A DNA stretch of 60,716 bases from a virus: positions 1 to 60,716 of IMG/VR virus record IMGVR_UViG_3300035698_016860; one strand, written 5' to 3'. The notes below the pieces were generated by a model that saw only the letters and a program-made list of their open reading frames with translations, did no database searches and had not been told where the DNA came from. Positions 36,916 to 51,004 of the stretch are shown here, piece after piece. How positions within the stretch are numbered: position 1 is the first letter of the stretch; each line of letters opens with the position of its first letter. Position numbers and translations under genes: made by a program.

Positions 36916-38307
36916 GTGAAAGAAAATCAAGATAAAGCAATTCAAGAAATAGCAAAATTGATAATAGACACGAAATACGAAAATAAGGTCTATATTGCCG
37001 GCGGCTGGTGTAGAGATAAGGTTATTGGTAGACCAAATAAAGATATAGATTTTGTAGTAGAGCTCCCAGGCGGTGGTATATTTTTTGCTTTATGGTTAAC
37101 TAAAAAGCTCGGAGTATATAAGAAAGACTCAAATCCTATTATATATGGACGGTTCGGTACTGCTTGCTTTAGAGTTTTTGATATAGAATTTGAAAGCGTA
37201 ATGGCTAGAAAAGAAGCGTATGAACCAGGATCCAGAAAACCTAGAGTTGAATTCGGTACACTCCTAGAAGATGTATACCGTAGAGATTTTACTATTAATT
37301 CATTATTATTTAATATTTCAACAGGTCAAATGCTAGATCTTACAAGACAAGGGCTATCTGATATTATTGATAAAGTAATAAAAACACCAATAAATCCAGA
37401 TATAACATTTAAAGAAGATCCCTTGAGAATGCTTAGAGCTGTTAGATTTGCTTGTGTTCTAGGATTTGATATTGATAACACCTCTTTAAAGGCAATTGCA
37501 AGAAATTCTAATTCTCTGCAAACTATTTCATATGAAAGAATTAATGCCGAATTAACAAAAATATTAACTTCTGAATATCCTGCATTTGGAATTAAAATAC
37601 TTGTTGAAACACAATTAATGAAATATATTATTCCGGAAATATATCCAACTGTTGGACTCTCACAAAATAAATATCATACCAAGGATGTATTTGGTCATAC
37701 ATTAGACGTAGTTAACAGTACTCCACCAACTATTTTACATAGAATGTCTGCTTTATTACATGATATCGGAAAGCCGAAAACAATGAAACCTAAACCTAGA
37801 AACCAAGGAAATAGTTTTATTAATCACCAAACAGTCGGTGCTTATATGTCTGAAAAGATCTTAAGTAAATTAAAATATAGTAATGATTTTATCGAAGATG
37901 TCTGCTTTATTGTTAAAAATCATATGAGAACCAAAGATTATGGACCCGAAGCCAAGAAGGCATCCGATAAAACAATAAGAAAACTTATTGCAGATTCCGG
38001 TAAGAGATTAAGTCCTTTGTTAGAAGTATGCCATGCCGATAACGTATCTCATGGACCACACAGTATGCCTCTCCAAGCACAGAGCATAGTAAACAGAATA
38101 AAAGAGATTGAAGATAGAAAAGAACCAATCAAAATACCAGTTACCGGTAATGATGTAATGGAAGTATTCGAATTAAACCCTGGTCCAGAAGTCGGCAAAG
38201 TGTTAGATAAAGCCAAGGATCTATTTCTAGAAGGTCCAAATATCGATAAAAGTAATCTTATTAGTAAATTAAAAGATTTCTTCAAAAAGTGAGTTTTTTA
38301 TATTTAA
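36916..38307 (+). CDS. tRNA nucleotidyltransferase / poly(A) polymerase family with HD domain, 463 aa
   Basis: GTG 36916 eight bases after AAGGAG. Nucleotidyltransferase head: VYIAGGWCRDKVIGR, KDIDFVVE (metal Asp pair), RRDFTINSLLFN, EDPLRMLRAVRFA. HD domain: LHRMSALLHDIGKPKT ... NHQTVGAY, like bacterial CCA enzymes with an HD part. Several tRNAs here lack encoded CCA (Gln, Thr-CGT, Asn), so CCA addition is a sensible role. In the reassigned code the frame reads past TGA 38290 for four more codons to TAA 38305-38307. Confidence 0.9.
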
Positions 38308-43606: not shown

Positions 43607-43678
43607 AAATAGGCTATAGATAATCTTCCTTCTAACTTTTACTTGAAATAAAAAATTAGATTATTTAATTTCCTATTT
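43607..43678 (+). ncRNA. RNA motif copy A (stem, CTA/ATTT loop, 10-bp stem, TCCTTCTA)
   Basis: P1 AAATAGG / CCTATTT; internal loop CTA on the 5' side and ATTT on the 3' side; P2 of 10 pairs (43617-43626 with 43658-43667); the hairpin loop opens with TCCTTCTA. Same layout as copies at 43695 and 50700, with different stem sequences. Confidence 0.6.
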
Positions 43679-43694
43679 TTTAAAATAAATCGAT

Positions 43695-43756
43695 AGAGGC
43701 TATGAGATTTCTTCCTTCTAAAACCTGCTAAGTTATTAGAAATTTTAATTACCTCT
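43695..43756 (+). ncRNA. RNA motif copy B
   Basis: P1 AGAGG / CCTCT followed by a T-run; internal loop CTA / ATTA; P2 of 10 pairs including two G-T (43703-43712 with 43738-43747); loop opens with TCCTTCTA. It lies 17 bases after copy A and just before tRNA-Gly. Confidence 0.6.
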
Positions 43757-43766
43757 TTTTTATATT

Positions 43767-43852
43767 GCGGGCGTAACTCAGCGGTATGAGTACTTGACTT
43801 CCAATCAAGAGGCGTGTAGGTTCCGCAGGTTCGATCCCTGTCGCCCGCTCCA
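43767..43852 (+). tRNA. tRNA-Gly (TCC)
   Basis: Acceptor GCGGGCG / CGCCCGC, anticodon stem CTTGA / TCAAG with loop CTTCCAA, CCA encoded. The variable region is unusually long for Gly (total 86 bases). Confidence 0.82.
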
Positions 43853-43863
43853 AAATTTTTAAA

Positions 43864-43939
43864 GCCTTCGTAATTCAATTGATAGAAACCCTGTCTTGTA
43901 AACAGGAAGTTGGAGATTCGAATTCTCCCGAGGGCACCA
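43864..43939 (+). tRNA. tRNA-Thr (TGT)
   Basis: Acceptor GCCTTCG / CGAGGGC, anticodon stem CCTGT / ACAGG with loop CTTGTAA, CCA encoded. Confidence 0.9.
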
Positions 43940-43952
43940 TTAGTAATGTTAT

Positions 43953-44040
43953 GCGGCTGTAGAAGAACAGGTAAATTCGCCTGATTTAGGATCAGGTGCC
44001 TTTAGTGGCGTTGTAGGTTCGAAGCCTATCAGCCGTACCA
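43953..44040 (+). tRNA. tRNA-Leu (TAG)
   Basis: Class II tRNA of 88 bases; acceptor GCGGCTG / CAGCCGT, anticodon stem CCTGA / TCAGG with loop TTTAGGA, CCA encoded. Confidence 0.88.
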
Positions 44041-44052
44041 TCTTTTATACAT

Positions 44053-44128
44053 ACCTGTGTAGCTCCAAATGGATTAGAGCGCTGATTTCGTAATTCAGAG
44101 GTTGTAAGTTCGAACCTTACCGCGGGTA
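44053..44128 (+). tRNA. tRNA-Thr (CGT)
   Basis: Acceptor ACCTGTG / CGCGGGT, anticodon loop TTCGTAA in stem CTGAT / TTCAG (one T-T), T loop TTCGAAC. CCA not encoded. Confidence 0.8.
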
Positions 44129-44163
44129 CTTTTTATCATTAATAATTTTATAAAGGTTGCAAA

Positions 44164-44565
44164 ATGGAGTATAATATGAATAAAACAATGACGAGTATAG
44201 CTAAAGAACTTAATATAACCCTATCATCACAAGATACAATTAACTATAGTGCTAGTACATATAGTGAAATCTTCATGGGTAAGTATAAAGACAAAGAGTT
44301 CGAGTTTATTTCATTTTTTCATGAATTAGGTCATATTAAAATTAAACAAGAATTCATTAAGAAATGGAAATATAACACTCTCACAATAGAATTAGAATGT
44401 TGGAATATTGGTCTTGAAGAAGCAAGAAGAAGAAATATATTCTTTTCCGATAAAGCTATTGAATGGGGTTTTAATAAGGCTCTATCTTATGTAGGTCGTG
44501 ATGAAAGAGAATATAGTAATTGAGAGGAAGATTTCAGTCATAATTTATGAATAAATAAATTTTAA
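44164..44565 (+). CDS. Zincin-like metallopeptidase domain protein, 133 aa
   Basis: ATG 44164 (an ATG four codons later is an alternative) to TAA 44563-44565 through two TGA-Trp (SNWEEDF, HNLWINKF). FISFFHELGHIKIKQE carries an HExxH-type zinc motif as in ImmA/IrrE-like domains. Such domains cut repressors or act in toxin-antitoxin or phage-control roles; the substrate is unknown. It stands next to a second zincin-like gene. Confidence 0.75.
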
Positions 44566-44581
44566 AAAGATAATTTTTTAT

Positions 44582-44609
44582 TTTACTTTTTTTGAAAAGA
44601 TGTTATAAT
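44582..44609 (+). promoter_or_regulatory. Promoter of the shared early type, close to a start codon
   Basis: TTTACT, 16 bases with TTGAAAAGATGT, TATAAT; the ATG at 44616 begins seven bases after the -10 box, where transcription should start. Confidence 0.85.
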
Positions 44610-44615
44610 TTAACT

Positions 44616-45182
44616 ATGAAAAATAAAAAAGTTACACCAAAGTCAATAGTAAAGCAACATATTCATGATATTTGTAATAATCTTGATATACAAATAAAAT
44701 ATAGAAACATCGCAAGAGCTCTATTATCGTTAGGTATTATTTATAATAGAGAGATACCTGCAATGGGTCTAGACTATCGTCACGACAAAATAACAATTGA
44801 AATAAACCCGGAATTTATAAATCAACATTCTGAGCACGACATTCAGTTCTGTTTAATGCATGAAGCCTTTCACTATCTTAGAGATATAGAAAATATTGGT
44901 GAGGGCAGGAGCAATCGTCGCAATAAGATTGAAACAGTAGTTGAAGAAATAATAATAAATAGTATTTTGGAAGATTTAGTATTTTCACAAGAATTTATAG
45001 ATAAGGTTACATTCAAATATATTAGAAAACCTATTGAATATAATGGTTCGTTAGATAAGCAAGAACTAATTAAATGGATAAGAACAAAAAAAAACATACA
45101 TAATATTAAAAATTTTAGTAAAAATACTAGATTTATATTAACATACGAAGATTGGTTAGACTGGCTATGAAAAATAAAATAG
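44616..45182 (+). CDS. DUF2201-like putative metallopeptidase, leaderless gene, 188 aa
   Basis: ATG 44616 to TAG 45180-45182, reading one TGA (WLWKIK). FC-LMHEAFHYLRDI holds an HExxH zinc motif, and the pattern N-term helices plus HEAFH recalls the peptidase-like domain found before VWA domains (DUF2201). No ribosome site fits between promoter and ATG, so the message is probably leaderless. An upstream in-frame ATG at 44592 lies inside the promoter. Confidence 0.75.
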
Positions 45183-45273
45183 TAAAGCTTCCGATCTATA
45201 ATATTTTCATTTACAATATTTAAAAACATATTATTACATAATTAACATAGATATTTTTAACAAGGAAGAAAAA

Positions 45274-45444
45274 ATGGATAAATTAATAAAAGTAGCAAAA
45301 GAGTATTTCTCTCACGACCCAGGAGGTAAGGTAGGCTTTGTACTACTCACTCCTGCAAATATGGAAGCGATCGAACAGCGGGGCGAAGTCTACATTGTTG
45401 TTAATGAACTTGAAGTATTCCATACTATTGAAGATGATACATAA
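45274..45444 (+). CDS. Small hypothetical protein, 56 aa
   Basis: ATG 45274 after CAAGGAAGAAAAA. Uses CGG, GGC and CTC codons more than its neighbours. Alpha/beta mix; no motif recognised. Confidence 0.65.
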   Translation: MDKLIKVAKEYFSHDPGGKVGFVLLTPANMEAIEQRGEVYIVVNELEVFHTIEDDT

Positions 45445-45462
45445 CTAATAAGGAGTCTATTT

Positions 45463-46662
45463 ATGAATGAATTGATGAAGATCCCAAAACGGATTAATGT
45501 TGGATTTCAAGAACGAAGTGATACTTATACAAAAAAATTAGCATACGTTATTTATTATGATGAAAAAGGTAAATTGCGTAAAGAAACATCATGGGAAAAT
45601 TGGCGTGATAAAAATATTCCTAATGTAGAATTTGATAATGAACCAATGTCAGGATTTGTTTTAAATCAAGGTGTTGGCGGAGCTAGACAAAGTTGGGGAC
45701 CTAATGTAAGAAATGAATACATAAGAGTTTATGATCCTCGTGACTTTGAATTTGAAATTAGTGTAGCTAATCTATTATTTCTCTTACAGGAATGTTCAGC
45801 AATAAAAGGTAAAGGCTTAGAAGGTGATTTTGTTTATGCATGGTCTGGTAAAGAATTAGTTTTATTACCAGCAGAATCCCACGAATATAAAACTTCTATG
45901 GATTATACTAATCTACAGACTAAAAAAGTGACTGCAAAACAAATGGTTAAAGGTTATACATATAAAACAAAAGATACTAAGGAAGTAATATATCTAGGTA
46001 GACATATGTGGTATGAAAACAAATGGCCACAAAGAAATAGTGAAGACCAGTTCAATCATAGAAGTGGTAAAAAGAAGCACATATTTATTGATCTTAAAAA
46101 AGTAGGTAAAAAACCATCTGATATATCTACTTATACATATATAATAGAAGTAGGTTTTACTAAATTAGGGTCAATTATAGACGAAACACCACATCCAGAA
46201 TTTTCTAATGAATACGAAAAATTAGTTAAGTCTCATCATACGTCTAAACCAAAGGAACTTAAGCTAGTACCAAAAAAACTTAAACTAGACCGAAGTGAAT
46301 CTGGTGGTTATTGTAGTAACAGTCGATATGGTGCGTTAGAAGAAAATGGAAAATTATATAGTGTTTGTATATATAGGAGTAGTAATAATAGACATTATAA
46401 TCATGCTACAAGTAAATATGTTTATTCTGGGCCAGATACATATAATATAAATTACGATAACTTATATGAACTCACAGAGGATGGATTTAGATATGGTCAG
46501 TATATAAATAACAAAAGAACACCTAGTCGATATCATAATAATTACTATACTAATAATACTATTAAAGAAAATGCAACGATAGAAGAAGTAAGCTCGCTGG
46601 TTTCAAATACAATTATATGTGTATGTGAAAATGGTGCAGAATACGAAGTAATAGAAAATTAA
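45463..46662 (+). CDS. Conserved large-phage protein, 399 aa
   Basis: ATG 45463 after AAGGAG. KIPKRINVGFQERSDTYTKKLAYVIYYDEKGKLRKETSWENWRDK, FDNEPMSGFVLNQGVGG and RVYDPRDFEFEISVANLLFLL are hallmarks of a protein family common in Bacillus and other large phages, with no assigned role. Intact, TGG only. Confidence 0.8.
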   Translation: MNELMKIPKRINVGFQERSDTYTKKLAYVIYYDEKGKLRKETSWENWRDKNIPNVEFDNEPMSGFVLNQGVGGARQSWGPNVRNEYIRVYDPRDFEFEISVANLLFLLQECSAIKGKGLEGDFVYAWSGKELVLLPAESHEYKTSMDYTNLQTKKVTAKQMVKGYTYKTKDTKEVIYLGRHMWYENKWPQRNSEDQFNHRSGKKKHIFIDLKKVGKKPSDISTYTYIIEVGFTKLGSIIDETPHPEFSNEYEKLVKSHHTSKPKELKLVPKKLKLDRSESGGYCSNSRYGALEENGKLYSVCIYRSSNNRHYNHATSKYVYSGPDTYNINYDNLYELTEDGFRYGQYINNKRTPSRYHNNYYTNNTIKENATIEEVSSLVSNTIICVCENGAEYEVIEN

Positions 46663-46671
46663 GGAGTAGAT

Positions 46672-47115
46672 ATGAACAAAAATGATGAAGTAATCAAAGA
46701 GTTACTCAAACAAGTAGAAAAACAAAAAAAGGAATTAGGTGTTCGTGAAAGAGCGAGTTTGGTTACGAATGGTTTATTTGTAAATGGAAACAATAGTAAT
46801 GATATTCTCAATATTAATACTGTTAATGATGTAAACATTCTTATACGCGCAACAAGATTATTGATTAAAGACGATCTTGCACATAAAAAAGCTTGTGAAC
46901 TATTAGAGATCGATCTTGTTGAAAATGATCGTAAACCATGTGGATACACCTTTGACGAATGGATTACAGATTTTAAAACAAGAATTCGTATTATTGAATG
47001 GAATAAACGAAAGCGAAAGCTCAGTGCAACAACTAAAAAATTGAATACTTTGATGAGTACAGATGCTAGAACTGAATCAGAGTTAGATACAATTAGAGCT
47101 GAATTAAATATATAA
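46672..47115 (+). CDS. Hypothetical helical protein, 147 aa
   Basis: ATG 46672 after AAGGAGTAGAT. Coiled-coil start (LLKQVEKQKKELGVRERAS) and a basic helical C-terminal half (WNKRKRKLSATTKKLNTL). Resembles a phage protein usually found near the family above, but I cannot name it. Confidence 0.72.
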   Translation: MNKNDEVIKELLKQVEKQKKELGVRERASLVTNGLFVNGNNSNDILNINTVNDVNILIRATRLLIKDDLAHKKACELLEIDLVENDRKPCGYTFDEWITDFKTRIRIIEWNKRKRKLSATTKKLNTLMSTDARTESELDTIRAELNI

Positions 47116-47122
47116 ATTTTAT

Positions 47123-47194
47123 TGCGCGGTAGTTCAGAGGCAGAACAATGGTTTGTTAAATCATAAGTCGGGATTTCGATATTCCCCCGCGCAG
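47123..47194 (+). tRNA. tRNA-Asn (GTT)
   Basis: Acceptor TGCGCGG / CCGCGCA, anticodon stem ATGGT / ATCAT with loop TTGTTAA, discriminator G. CCA not encoded. Confidence 0.87.
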
Positions 47195-47195
47195 C

Positions 47196-47265
47196 ACCTA
47201 ACTTATTGAATAACCTCTACGTGGTGTTAGGTAGAAACAGGTAATGCTGGCTAATAGTTCAATAA
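47196..47265 (+). ncRNA. Pseudoknotted intergenic RNA between two tRNA genes
   Basis: ACCTAAC (47196) pairs with GTTAGGT (47226) and TTATTGAA (47203) with TTCAATAA (47258). The two helices cross, giving an H-type pseudoknot of 7 and 8 perfect pairs. No open frame. Could be a processing element, riboswitch-like fold or small RNA. Confidence 0.5.
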
Positions 47266-47271
47266 ATATGA

Positions 47272-47348
47272 GCCCCTGTAATTCAGTGGAACAGAATAAC
47301 CGCCTTCTAAGCGGTAAGTCGCAGATTCAAATTCTGCCAGGGGTACCA
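47272..47348 (+). tRNA. tRNA-Arg (TCT)
   Basis: Acceptor GCCCCTG / CAGGGGT, anticodon stem ACCGC / GCGGT with loop CTTCTAA, discriminator A, CCA encoded. Confidence 0.9.
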
Positions 47349-47356
47349 TTTTCTCG

Positions 47357-47384
47357 TTTACAAATTTTGAATTATTATTATAAT
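47357..47384 (+). promoter_or_regulatory. Promoter of the shared early type
   Basis: TTTACA, 16 bases with TTTTGAATT, TATAAT. Drives the radical SAM gene at 47404. Confidence 0.82.
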
Positions 47385-47403
47385 GCAAAAAGAGAGGTTA
47401 TAA

Positions 47404-48180
47404 ATGGATTTTATATTTTGCATGTATTTTAATTACACATGTAATATGAAATGTGAAGATTGTTTGCATGATTGTGGTCCAGATTCTACCGAAGAAATGT
47501 CTAGAAATGAGTTAGAATTATGTTTAATGTTTTTCAGGTCCATATTTGATAAAAAACAGAGAATGAATATAGCTATTTCCGGTGGCGAACCTCTGGTTTA
47601 TCCAGATTTTTACTGGTTTCTCAACGAATATAGGAAACTCAGTAAATTATGGACAGTTCGTATATATACAAATAGTACTATAAAAATTGATAAAAGTAAA
47701 ATACCAAAAGATATAATTAGCTCAATCAGAATTAGTGATGATATATTTCATCAAATGGAAAGAAAAAGGTTAAAGCTTAAAATAGTTGACAATTCTGATG
47801 TTTGTGACGACATCTCGTATTTTAACTCTAAATCAGAAGCTATTTTTAATAATAAGGGTCGCGGTAAAGATGTTTTAGAGAAATATGAAACATATTATTC
47901 AAAGAAATATTGCTATACTGAAACTCAAAATGGTTTTCATCAAACAAGTATATCTTTTGGACCAGGTAAAATAAGATTTTGTTCAGAAAATTCACACGAT
48001 TACAGCAACGAACCTTGTTTTATGGATTATAAAGACCTTATCATCAAAGGCCATGAAGGAATGTTTATGGCTGGCATGGAATATAATAATCTTCATAGAT
48101 GTATGAATTGTTTAACACCGTGTACATTTTTTAGATTAAAATTAGATAAAGATGGAAATTTAATAAAGAAAAAACAATAG
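47404..48180 (+). CDS. Radical SAM protein, 258 aa
   Basis: ATG 47404 after GAGAGGTTATAA. Cys 13, 17 and 20 in CNMKCEDC form the CxxxCxxC site for a 4Fe-4S cluster; NIAISGGEPLVYPDF is the GGEP motif that binds SAM. A later Cys group (CMNCLTPC) could bind an auxiliary cluster or metal, as in peptide-modifying radical SAM enzymes. Substrate unknown; a nearby short peptide gene (48191) and tRNAs are possible targets. Confidence 0.82.
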   Translation: MDFIFCMYFNYTCNMKCEDCLHDCGPDSTEEMSRNELELCLMFFRSIFDKKQRMNIAISGGEPLVYPDFYWFLNEYRKLSKLWTVRIYTNSTIKIDKSKIPKDIISSIRISDDIFHQMERKRLKLKIVDNSDVCDDISYFNSKSEAIFNNKGRGKDVLEKYETYYSKKYCYTETQNGFHQTSISFGPGKIRFCSENSHDYSNEPCFMDYKDLIIKGHEGMFMAGMEYNNLHRCMNCLTPCTFFRLKLDKDGNLIKKKQ

Positions 48181-48190
48181 GAGAAAAATT

Positions 48191-48223
48191 ATGAGTAATA
48201 TTAAGAGAGGTGCAGTTTTCTAA
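48191..48223 (+). CDS. Very short peptide, 10 aa
   Basis: ATG 48191 with AGGAG nine bases upstream and TAA 48221-48223; peptide MSNIKRGAVF. It lies right after the radical SAM gene. May be a leader peptide or chance. Confidence 0.3.
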   Translation: MSNIKRGAVF

Positions 48224-48250
48224 GAAATCCAATATAGGAGGAATTAGAAA

Positions 48251-48496
48251 ATGAGTAGAAGCTTTAAAAAAATTGCATGTTTAGGTAGTGAAGGTAGAAA
48301 ACATCTTAGATTTGCTAAAAGACAATCTAATAAGAAAATTAGAAGAAGTGTGAATATTCCAAATGGTAAACAATACAGAAAGATATACGATACTTGGGAT
48401 ATTAGAGATTTTCAATGGAAAGAATTTCGAAAATTAGAAGTTGAAAGTTATATAGAAAGAAATATTTTAGTAAGACATAGAATCTATATGAAGTAG
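48251..48496 (+). CDS. Small basic protein, 81 aa
   Basis: ATG 48251 after TAGGAGGAATTAGAAA. Very basic (KIACLGSEGRKHLRFAKRQSNKKIRR), fits a nucleic-acid or ribosome-binding protein; similar short basic proteins are common in phages. The stop overlaps the first bases of tRNA-Trp. Confidence 0.72.
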   Translation: MSRSFKKIACLGSEGRKHLRFAKRQSNKKIRRSVNIPNGKQYRKIYDTWDIRDFQWKEFRKLEVESYIERNILVRHRIYMK

Positions 48497-48570
48497 ACCT
48501 GTGGTGTAATGGTAACATAACGGTCTCCAAAACCGGAAGATTGGGAGTTCGAGTCTCTCCAGGTCTGCCA
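48495..48570 (+). tRNA. tRNA-Trp (CCA)
   Basis: Acceptor AGACCTG / CAGGTCT, anticodon loop CTCCAAA in stem CGGT / ACCG, discriminator G, CCA encoded. The anticodon reads TGG, not TGA by normal pairing. Confidence 0.9.
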
Positions 48571-48580
48571 TTTTTATAAA

Positions 48581-48643
48581 GGAGATATCATGTTAAATTC
48601 GGGCGAGTGGATGGTGAATGGACTCACTACACTTTGATATCTT
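48581..48643 (+). promoter_or_regulatory. Helix that can hide a ribosome site
   Basis: GAGATATCA (48582) pairs with TGATATCTT (48635). The 5' strand contains the AAGGAG site and touches the ATG of the leader frame at 48590, so folding would block its translation. Confidence 0.45.
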
Positions 48644-48679
48644 CATTCTTTAATTTACAGGAGGGATTATGAATTGTAA
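48590..48679 (+). CDS. Leader peptide candidate, 29 aa
   Basis: ATG 48590 five bases after AAGGAG; TGA read as Trp (TTLWYLH), TAA 48677-48679, overlapping the next gene start by 11 bases. Its end covers the AGGAGG of the next gene, so its translation could control that gene. Confidence 0.45.
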
Positions 48680-48959
48680 GAAAGAAATAGAACTTCTTAC
48701 CAAAATTATTAAATATTTGAAAAAGACTATTGATTACAATGGTTTCTACAATGCTTATTTATTGAAAATGATTGATGAGAAAGAGTTCGAAAAAATATCA
48801 GAAGACTTCATAATTAAACCTAGTGATAAAATAGATTATGAGCAGTATAATGCATTGATAGAGTTTATTGATGAGAACCCTGATATAGAATTTGACAATG
48901 ATGAAATCGCAGATATTATGGGTATTACTACATCTAAACTTACTGAATTTATGGAATAG
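48669..48959 (+). CDS. Hypothetical protein with HTH-like end, 96 aa
   Basis: ATG 48669 after AGGAGGG. Helical; the C-terminal DNDEIADIMGITTSKLTEFME reads as a helix-turn-helix, so a small regulator is possible. Confidence 0.7.
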   Translation: MNCKKEIELLTKIIKYLKKTIDYNGFYNAYLLKMIDEKEFEKISEDFIIKPSDKIDYEQYNALIEFIDENPDIEFDNDEIADIMGITTSKLTEFME

Positions 48960-48979
48960 CCTAAATAAAAGGAGAGAAA

Positions 48980-49108
48980 ATGAAACAAGAATTAATAAAA
49001 AGAATTGAATCAGCGATATTAGAAACACCAACCGGTGATTTAAGAAATCTGTTGGCCGATGTGAATATATTTTTACAAACAACAGTTATTATAGAAAAAT
49101 CTGAATAA
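48980..49108 (+). CDS. Small protein, 42 aa
   Basis: ATG 48980 after AAAGGAGAG, TAA 49106-49108. Single amphipathic helical protein (LIKRIESAILETPTGDLRNLL). Unknown. Confidence 0.6.
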   Translation: MKQELIKRIESAILETPTGDLRNLLADVNIFLQTTVIIEKSE

Positions 49109-49135
49109 AAGAAGAAATAGTAAATTAATAATATT

Positions 49136-49214
49136 CGGGGTATAGTCTAGTCTGGCCTATGACACCTGCCTGTCACGCAGGAGATCGCGGATTCGAATTC
49201 CGCTGCCCTGGCCA
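49136..49214 (+). tRNA. tRNA-Asp (GTC)
   Basis: Acceptor CGGGGTA / TGCCCTG with G-T pairs, anticodon stem CCTGC / GCAGG with loop CTGTCAC, discriminator G, CCA encoded. Confidence 0.87.
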
Positions 49215-49240
49215 TTTTATAGAAAACACAATAAAAAAAT

Positions 49241-49402
49241 ATGACTCTTTAGAGTTATAAATACCGTAGGAACTACGGAAATTAAAGCTTGTGGAGATAA
49301 AAGCTCTGACTTGAATAATGATTATTCAAGTGAAACTATTATCGATGAAACAAGAAGGTACAACTCTTCGGAGTTGTGTTAGTTCACATAAGTAGAGTCG
49401 TA
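49241..49402 (+). ncRNA. Multi-hairpin structured RNA
   Basis: TATGACTCT (49241) and AGAGTCGTA (49394) close the element with 9 pairs. Inside are hairpins CCGTAG-GAA-CTACGG (49264), ACTTGAATAA-TGA-TTATTCAAGT (49309) and ACAACTC-TTCG-GAGTTGT (49360, UUCG tetraloop). No open frame. The last hairpin and flanks (49352-49387) are complementary to the terminator at 39586-39622. Confidence 0.55.
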
Positions 49403-49462
49403 AAACCGGCATATCGTTTGATGTATGAAAGCTACCAACAAGCTGATAATTACAAATTTTTA

Positions 49463-49490
49463 TTTACTTTTTTTGAAAAGATGTTATAAT
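49463..49490 (+). promoter_or_regulatory. Promoter of the shared early type
   Basis: TTTACT, 16 bases with TTGAAAAGATGT, TATAAT. Drives 49523. Confidence 0.87.
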
Positions 49491-49522
49491 CTAATTAGAT
49501 AAATAAAAGGGAGTACATCTAA

Positions 49523-49822
49523 ATGAGACCAAAATCCTCTGAGGGGAACTTTCGGGAAGCAGTAACAGAATGCTTAATAAAAGGAGTACGTACTCGATAT
49601 GACGCTTGTGGATCTAACTCACTTGAAGAATGTAAAAAAATTTATAAAGATTTTGAATATATACAAAGTGGACAAGTACGATATATAGATGGTATTAAAT
49701 ATAAGTCGAAAATTCTTTATCATTTTTTTCAACGCAAAACTACGAAACCTAAATCTGTAAAAGAAAAGGCTAGTCAAGATGAAGAATCAGATAAAAGATA
49801 TATCATATTTTTAGAAGAATAA
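49523..49822 (+). CDS. Small protein with KRYIIFLEE tail, 99 aa
   Basis: ATG 49523 after AAAGGGAG. Basic body (KSSEGNFREAVTECLIKGVR) then an acidic linker and SDKRYIIFLEE, a member of the shared C-terminal tail family. Single-gene operon between two early promoters. Confidence 0.72.
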   Translation: MRPKSSEGNFREAVTECLIKGVRTRYDACGSNSLEECKKIYKDFEYIQSGQVRYIDGIKYKSKILYHFFQRKTTKPKSVKEKASQDEESDKRYIIFLEE

Positions 49823-49834
49823 ATAAAAATTTTT

Positions 49835-49862
49835 GTTTTACTTTTTAAAATAGTGTTATAAT
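49835..49862 (+). promoter_or_regulatory. Promoter of the shared early type
   Basis: GTTTTA, 16 bases, TATAAT. Drives the metallo-beta-lactamase fold gene at 49888. Confidence 0.8.
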
Positions 49863-49887
49863 TTAATTAGATAAAAAGGGAGATATT

Positions 49888-50697
49888 ATGAATATAGTAT
49901 TTTTAGGTACAGGTAGTGCATTTACACTAGATAATTTCCAATCTAACATTATGTTTGAACACGAAAGTAGAAAACTTCTTGTCGACGCAGGGGACGATAT
50001 CAGAAGATCGTTAAATGCCATGGGATTAAATTACAGAGATATTACAGATGTTTATATATCTCATCTACACGGTGATCATACATCAGGATTAGAATATTTA
50101 GCACTCTGTTCTTATTTCGACCCAGATAAAGAAAAAATTAATTTATATGGTCATCACAGAGTTCTAGACGCTTTATGGGATACTGTTTTACAAGGAAGAT
50201 TGAGATCTGTACCAGGTAAAAGAGTTCAATTAAGCGACTACTTCAACGTTTTTCCTTTAGACGATAATAATTATTTCGGCTTTGGTAGAAACAAATTTGA
50301 GCTTGTGCAATCTGTGCATATAATGGATGGTTTTTCAATTGTATCTTCGTATGGTCTTATGATAACACTTCTAGATCTTGGTAAAAAACTCTATATTACG
50401 ACGGACACCCAGTTTAACCCCAACCAGATAAAGGATTTTTATGAAATGGCTGACATAATAATACAAGATTGTGAATACTTATATTTTAATGAAACCCCGA
50501 TTTTTAGTAGTGTTCATTCTCATTATGAAGAACTTTTAACACTACCTTTAAAAACTAGAAGGAAAATGTATTTAACACATTATCAAGATAGGGTTATTCA
50601 TGAAGATAAATTTCTAGAAGCTATAAAAGACGGATTCTTAGGTTTTCTTGTTCATTCGAGAAGACATGATTTCGAAAATTTTATGAATAAAAAATAA
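49888..50697 (+). CDS. Metallo-beta-lactamase fold hydrolase, RNase Z-like, 269 aa
   Basis: ATG 49888 after AAAGGGAG. FLGTGSAFTLDNFQSN at the start, SHLHGDHTSGLE (HxHxDH zinc motif), ITTDTQF and a late His (LTHYQD) are the order of RNase Z / cyclic-nucleotide phosphodiesterase-type members. With 20 tRNA genes nearby, tRNA 3' trimming is one sensible role; a phosphodiesterase against host signal nucleotides is another. No sequence feature decides between them. Confidence 0.8.
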   Translation: MNIVFLGTGSAFTLDNFQSNIMFEHESRKLLVDAGDDIRRSLNAMGLNYRDITDVYISHLHGDHTSGLEYLALCSYFDPDKEKINLYGHHRVLDALWDTVLQGRLRSVPGKRVQLSDYFNVFPLDDNNYFGFGRNKFELVQSVHIMDGFSIVSSYGLMITLLDLGKKLYITTDTQFNPNQIKDFYEMADIIIQDCEYLYFNETPIFSSVHSHYEELLTLPLKTRRKMYLTHYQDRVIHEDKFLEAIKDGFLGFLVHSRRHDFENFMNKK

Positions 50698-50699
50698 AA

Positions 50700-50793
50700 T
50701 AGGTGGCTATAAAAACTCTTCCTTCTATATACATTGTATATAAAGGGGGTAAGTTGAAACCCCTAGATAATTAGAATTTTTAATTACCACCTA
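50700..50793 (+). ncRNA. RNA motif copy C with extra hairpin, upstream of 50816
   Basis: P1 TAGGTGG / CCACCTA; internal loop CTA / ATTA; P2 of 10 positions with one C-A mismatch (50710-50719 with 50773-50782); loop opens with TCCTTCTA and contains an extra hairpin AGGGG / CCCCT. Nine bases later comes TAGAAAGGAG, the ribosome site of 50816, which TCCTTCTA could partly pair with. Confidence 0.6.
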
Positions 50794-50815
50794 AATAATT
50801 TAGAAAGGAGATAAT

Positions 50816-51004
50816 ATGTTTCTATCTTATTTTAAAAAATTCCCAGAAAAGGATAGGACCTTAGAAGTTATTGTTGAATTTCCAGATGATGGCGGAAACA
50901 CTGGAAATGTCATAGACACTATTGTTCATCCTTTAGATTATGAACCGAAAGGTGAAACTGTATATCAAAAAGAAGACAACACAAAGAACGTTATAAATGA
51001 GTAA
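50816..51004 (+). CDS. Small hypothetical protein, 62 aa
   Basis: ATG 50816 after AGAAAGGAG. Beta-rich, acidic (RTLEVIVEFPDDGGNTGNVID). Downstream of RNA motif copy C. Not recognised. Confidence 0.68.
   Translation: MFLSYFKKFPEKDRTLEVIVEFPDDGGNTGNVIDTIVHPLDYEPKGETVYQKEDNTKNVINE

Follow-up and report, generated by a model that had tools for sequence, protein, structure and literature searches.

The stretch of DNA analysed here (the window) is a 61-kb fragment, 60,716 nucleotides (nt) at full length, of the IMG/VR virus record IMGVR_UViG_3300035698_016860, and it carries three copies, A, B and C, of a repeat predicted to fold into two stems separated by an internal loop (Table 1). All three follow the order P1–CUA–P2 (10 bp)–UCCUUCUA–variable insert–P2'–NUUN–P1'. 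P1 pairs as AAATAGG/CCTATTT in copy A, AGAGG/CCTCT in copy B and TAGGTGG/CCACCTA in copy C; it is 5-7 bp long in the window and ends with GG/CC. The internal loop has CTA on its 5' side and ATTT (A) or ATTA (B and C) on its 3' side. P2 comprises exactly 10 positions, 9 of them paired in copy C, ends with CU/AG and is followed by TCCTTCTA. Copies A and B stand in tandem directly upstream of a tRNA-Gly gene (43767). Copy C begins 2 nt past the stop codon of the open reading frame (ORF) 49888-50697 and ends 7 nt ahead of TAGAAAGGAG (50801-50810), which precedes the ORF at 50816. Judged from their sequences, all three belong to one kind of small folded RNA, which is widespread and had no name so far.

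Table 1. Position and parts of the three copies of the element in the window.
Copy	Coordinates	Strand	P1	CUA	P2	UCCUUCUA	Insert	3' internal loop	Basis
A	43607..43678	+	43607-43613/43672-43678	43614-43616	43617-43626/43658-43667	43627-43634	43635-43657 (small hairpin UUUUA-CUUGAAA-UAAAA)	AUUU 43668-43671	exact pattern; covariance model R1 66 bits, E 2.7e-17; fold
B (tRNA-Gly starts 10 nt downstream)	43695..43756	+	43695-43699/43752-43756	43700-43702	43703-43712/43738-43747	43713-43720	43721-43737	AUUA 43748-43751	exact pattern; covariance model R1 55.9 bits, E 3e-14; fold
C	50700..50793	+	50700-50706/50787-50793	50707-50709	50710-50719/50773-50782 (one C-A mismatch)	50720-50727	50728-50772 (two hairpins)	AUUA 50783-50786	exact pattern; covariance model R1 53 bits, E 2.4e-13; fold z -2.64

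An earlier note, made from the letters of this DNA, had described the three copies with these parts, and the exact pattern, shuffled sequences and a covariance model all confirm them. The pattern GGCTAT-N9-TCCTTCTA occurs exactly three times in the window against 0.01 expected from dinucleotide shuffles, none of 100 shuffles reaching three. When the 140 nt downstream were shuffled, the combined pairing of P1 and P2 was matched in 0 (A), 20 (B) and 3 (C) of 2000 shuffles. The seed of the covariance model included copies A and B, so that the 53 bits of copy C, which was outside the seed, represent an independent test. The next best match in the window scores 12.7 bits, and the search of the window with this model found no fourth copy.

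The same element is found in numerous contigs of large phages and in numerous bacterial chromosomes, with many multi-copy loci. These came from scanning viral contigs, and contigs of one genome per species, for the exact pattern, and the element numbers so obtained are lower bounds. Many pattern matches inside coding sequence are devoid of stems and are chance occurrences. For covariation, 34 diverse copies selected for pairing and not for variation were aligned (alignment A2). This selection biases the proportion of paired cells (96%) but leaves the count of compensatory changes unaffected: 195 cells are altered on both sides, and 12 of the 16 pairs display two-sided changes. The covariation score reaches 0.887 versus 0.203 after shuffling and at most 0.191 with slid partners. 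The covariation that the earlier note had argued from three copies is therefore upheld in a diverse set, and a lack of further copies with kept pairing, which it had named as refutation, is contradicted by those found in phages and bacteria. The near-invariant parts are GGCUA, the single-stranded UCCUUCUA and the AG opening P2'. The commonest 3' internal loops are CUUU, AUUU and CUCU, and 11-bp P2 variants exist among the pattern matches. In agreement with the earlier impression of a motif bearing no known name, the window and 13 further loci gave no Rfam family at gathering score, the sole matches being tRNA and tmRNA.

The element is linked to one protein family of about 700 residues, represented by P0001, a 699-residue protein first met beside a tandem pair of elements in Paenibacillus. 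Loci were collected by the DNA pattern alone and only then searched for P0001 homologues. A homologue was found in 147 of the 206 loci with stems versus 8 of the 131 without, and most of these 8 are true elements lost to the strict filter. In loci with the full gene, 177 of 179 elements share its strand and closely flank it, 144 of them upstream and 33 downstream; of the other two, one is inside the gene and one on the opposite strand. A further 21 records with an element, most of which had no protein gene in the flank first retrieved, were examined whole: the gene is present elsewhere in 15 and missing from 6, all of these viral fragments (10-101 kb) and one of them the window. No other gene recurs beside the element and the protein gene, ter genes included.

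The reciprocal approach gave a similar picture. Clear elements are located near the gene in five of the seven phage regions that protein homology had identified: Xanthomonas XacN1 and LR745208 (3 elements each), MT835874 (up to 4), Rhodococcus Weasels2 (up to 3) and Lactobacillus LpeD (1-2). These elements are diverged, those of XacN1 and LR745208 having GGCCA. In Salicola SCTP-2 a single element lies 18 kb off, and Ruegeria RpAliso gives a marginal match only. All four new high-score bacterial homologues found by protein (L359-L362) have an element, and none was found in 32 loci that mostly have TerD-like matches only. Two Firmicutes genomes (G002 and G149; L361 and L362) each encode two diverged paralogues with their own element, one of these genomes being that of the Paenibacillus P0001 locus.

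These data bear on whether the repeats might be DNA elements, either sites or small mobile repeats, and not RNA. Such repeats would also be multi-copy, intergenic and hairpin-forming, but the near constant orientation to the gene, the compensatory changes in both stems together with fixed unpaired positions, and inserts resembling the bacterial Y RNA YrlA make this scarcely credible. The earlier note had interpreted the motif as a structured RNA, which holds, and as a riboswitch-like element or one that mimics or blocks Shine-Dalgarno pairing, which does not hold well; we regard either function as very improbable. UCCUUCUA, which resembles the end of Bacillus 16S rRNA, does pair at 7 of 8 positions with the ribosome site before 50816, but this is a single case. 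In 114 leaders of partner genes complementary sites are not enriched: GAAGGA is found in none, and the best pairing with UCCUUCUA is 5.73 of 8 versus 5.82 in neighbouring genes. Moreover, UCCUUCUA is kept across phyla, also in copies away from any ribosome site. As for a riboswitch, which would be expected to place a conserved ligand core before a set of metabolically related genes, the neighbours share no pathway; the inserts vary freely, and 1-5 tandem copies stand before or after one gene, the common factor being a protein family and not a metabolite pathway.

The AlphaFold2 model of P0001 (pLDDT 92.5) comprises a helical N-terminal region, resembling helical repeats, and a C-terminal region with the TerD beta-sandwich. 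In Foldseek searches, the highest-ranking matches that bear a name are TerD structures (3ibz, E 5.8e-6, TM (target) 0.61; 2kxt, E 1.5e-5, TM 0.67), whereas the N-terminal 400 residues have no match in the PDB at E <0.001. Residues ~300-678 match NCBIfam NF041916 (E 2e-148) and residues 194-683 match PHROG 33734 (E 3e-89). A search of PADLOC gave no match, nor did a search of the family profile against the sequences of solved structures. The literature searched gave no paper on SCO0854 or MXAN_6230, and none joining TerD with noncoding RNA. Ro60 was considered as a relative and rejected: Pfam detects no TROVE domain in P0001, hhalign against 8 TROVE proteins shows no relation, and Ro60 is not among the Foldseek matches listed for the whole protein or its N-terminal 400 residues. 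Similarly, no element was found beside the TROVE genes examined.

Bacterial Y RNA (YrlA) consists of a stem of paired ends, which tethers Ro60/Rsr, and of a tRNA-like effector domain binding PNPase (PMC8394870); it has been suggested that this domain competitively inhibits an anticodon nuclease (PMC7790460). Inserts of a minority of our elements (L150, L033, L169, L241, L333, L334) are tRNA-like. They are composed of a 3' half, an acceptor arm capped by a stable loop such as UUCG or GCGA, and a 5' half, and on the P1-P2 stem they fold into a T arm, an acceptor arm with its cap and a D arm, most cleanly in L333. Matches of inserts to the tRNA-like half of the Rfam YrlA family have E 8e-6 to 1e-8; L333, L241, L334 and L169 give such matches, and L150 matches YrlA over its full length (E 1.2e-8). 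The window copies lack such a domain. Inserts of up to 45 nt form the majority (211 of 261, with a median of 19 nt), mostly as short hairpins, and a T-loop motif occurs in only 2 of these 211. The short inserts of copy A, L130, L160 and L097, which belong to different phages, fold as hairpins with the same 7-nt loop CUUGAAA on differing stems, like an anticodon stem-loop.

The order of the halves, 3' before 5', is that of permuted tRNA genes and could reflect a self-processing or RNA-circularising element, in which the halves of real tRNAs would be excised where P2 meets UCCUUCUA, with closure in the anticodon loop. We consider this highly unlikely, as the loop-capped acceptor arms are mimic-like, the halves match YrlA, most inserts are short hairpins, and no conserved junction is seen beside the tRNA halves. 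Permuted-tRNA splicing and a self-cleaving ribozyme are both disfavoured by the capped acceptor arms and the similarity to YrlA.

Alternatively, the element could be mainly a cis-acting mRNA leader, by which the TerD-type protein would tune its own translation, dispersed copies controlling other genes such as the ORF at 50816. The upstream position of most elements, many of them 5-120 nt from the start of the gene, speaks for this, and so does copy C, a leader of the ORF at 50816. On the other hand, elements are also found downstream of the gene and in tandem arrays of up to 5 copies, full tRNA-mimic inserts have no evident leader role, A and B precede a tRNA, and many records (e.g. G009) have copies far from the gene. 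A leader role as main function therefore appears rather unlikely.

Taken together, the comparisons made here, all at the level of sequence and predicted structure, show a structured RNA family, its genetic tie to one protein family, the TerD fold of that protein, and YrlA-like inserts in some of the RNAs. The three copies are probably small noncoding RNA genes and would provide the RNA half, or scaffold, of a new ribonucleoprotein acting like Y RNA. The partner protein would bind the constant stem and the UCCUUCUA strand, and the insert would be the effector end that, after the fashion of Y RNA particles, recruits or decoys a factor handling tRNAs. Where a copy lies in the leader of the protein gene, it may in addition allow the protein to control its own synthesis. 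By extension from the family, the window copies would use the same protein, whose gene would then lie elsewhere in a large phage or in the host.

Several observations weigh against this proposal. The window itself encodes no gene of the P0001 family, and three diverged homologues (L363, L364 and L367; 478, 229 and 203 bits) have no clear element in the DNA examined. The majority of inserts are hairpins without a tRNA mimic, so the effector idea builds on a minority of copies. Finally, the N-terminal region of the protein has no recognisable RNA-binding fold, and direct binding of RNA is for this reason deduced from the linkage. In favour of the proposal, five contigs related to the phage of the window by another protein have neither the RNA nor the protein gene, which fits co-occurrence without locating the partner of the window copies.

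On a larger scale, it is conceivable, although we hold it to be somewhat short of probable, that the family represents a second 'Y RNA' system, which arose independently and is spread across bacteria, with a TerD-domain RNA-binding protein, scaffold RNAs, modular inserts and tRNA mimics. Large phages would have reused it, possibly to guard or repair tRNAs when anticodon nucleases of the host act on them. Many phage-defence and stress (Ter) systems contain TerD domains, and their molecular role is unsettled. An RNA partner, if true, would give one TerD branch a concrete activity, and tRNA-rich phages would gain a candidate RNA quality-control or tRNA-protection particle.

Other features surround the copies in the window. 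A CCA-adding enzyme is encoded at 36916-38292. Among the matches listed, its nearest relative (43% identity) comes from an uncultured phage of 735 kb, which makes the window a probable piece of a very large phage genome. Twenty tRNA genes are distributed among small ORFs between 41286 and 57141. Two of them, tRNA-Gly(tcc) and tRNA-Cys, are unusually long (86 and 87 nt), which suggests large variable arms in types normally without them. The ORF directly upstream of copy C has a match to Apyc1 (PF23023, E 2.3e-23), an anti-Pycsar phosphodiesterase that serves phages in counter-defence. Outside the window, an RtcB RNA ligase gene is found beside the TerD-type gene in L328 (1568-5060) and beside the element in L298 (216-1774); in Rhodococcus phage Weasels2 (L352 4815-11234) it is separated from the TerD-type gene by about 3 kb. 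These placements are reminiscent of rsr-Y RNA-rtcB operons; being single cases and not recurrent, they do not make RtcB a constant neighbour, and we do not claim such a neighbourhood.

The element and its partner resemble several known systems and differ from each of them. P0001 shares the TerD fold (3ibz, 2kxt, 2qz7) with proteins of tellurite resistance and Ter systems, and its invariant SGD motif resembles the Ca2+-site motif of TerD. However, its TerD region sits behind a helical N-terminal region of ~400 residues and it is linked to an RNA element, no other ter genes recurring beside it. With respect to NF041916 (MXAN_6230/SCO0854 family RING protein), P0001 scores below the cut-off (496 vs 600 bits) and Pfam finds no RING domain in it; neither this family record nor that of PHROG 33734, of unknown function, names an RNA partner. 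Permuted tRNA genes share with the tRNA-like inserts the inverted order of the halves, whereas the acceptor arm of the element is loop-capped and held on a conserved, protein-linked stem, and most members carry no tRNA.

Another parallel is YrlA (RF02553) with Ro60/Rsr. In both, the ends form a long interrupted basal stem with an internal loop, here with covarying P1 and P2, that carries a variable effector end. The tRNA-like module, where present, has T, D and capped acceptor arms joined via the anticodon-stem position, and the RNA gene adjoins that of its presumed partner. Yet the stem sequences and the internal loop differ, most elements have a short hairpin where YrlA has the tRNA module, tandem arrangement is common, and the partner, a helical/TerD protein, has no detectable relationship to TROVE. 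YrlA matches of the elements range from 28 to 43 bits (best 43.2) for a gathering score of 69, and the window copies give no match. Because both the Rfam score and the TROVE partner fail, we do not file the element as a Ro60/Y RNP (ribonucleoprotein). It is best read as an element that would work like a Y RNA particle without being one of the Ro60 type, and, if this is true, the Y RNA plan of a scaffold stem and a tRNA mimic would not be confined to Ro60.
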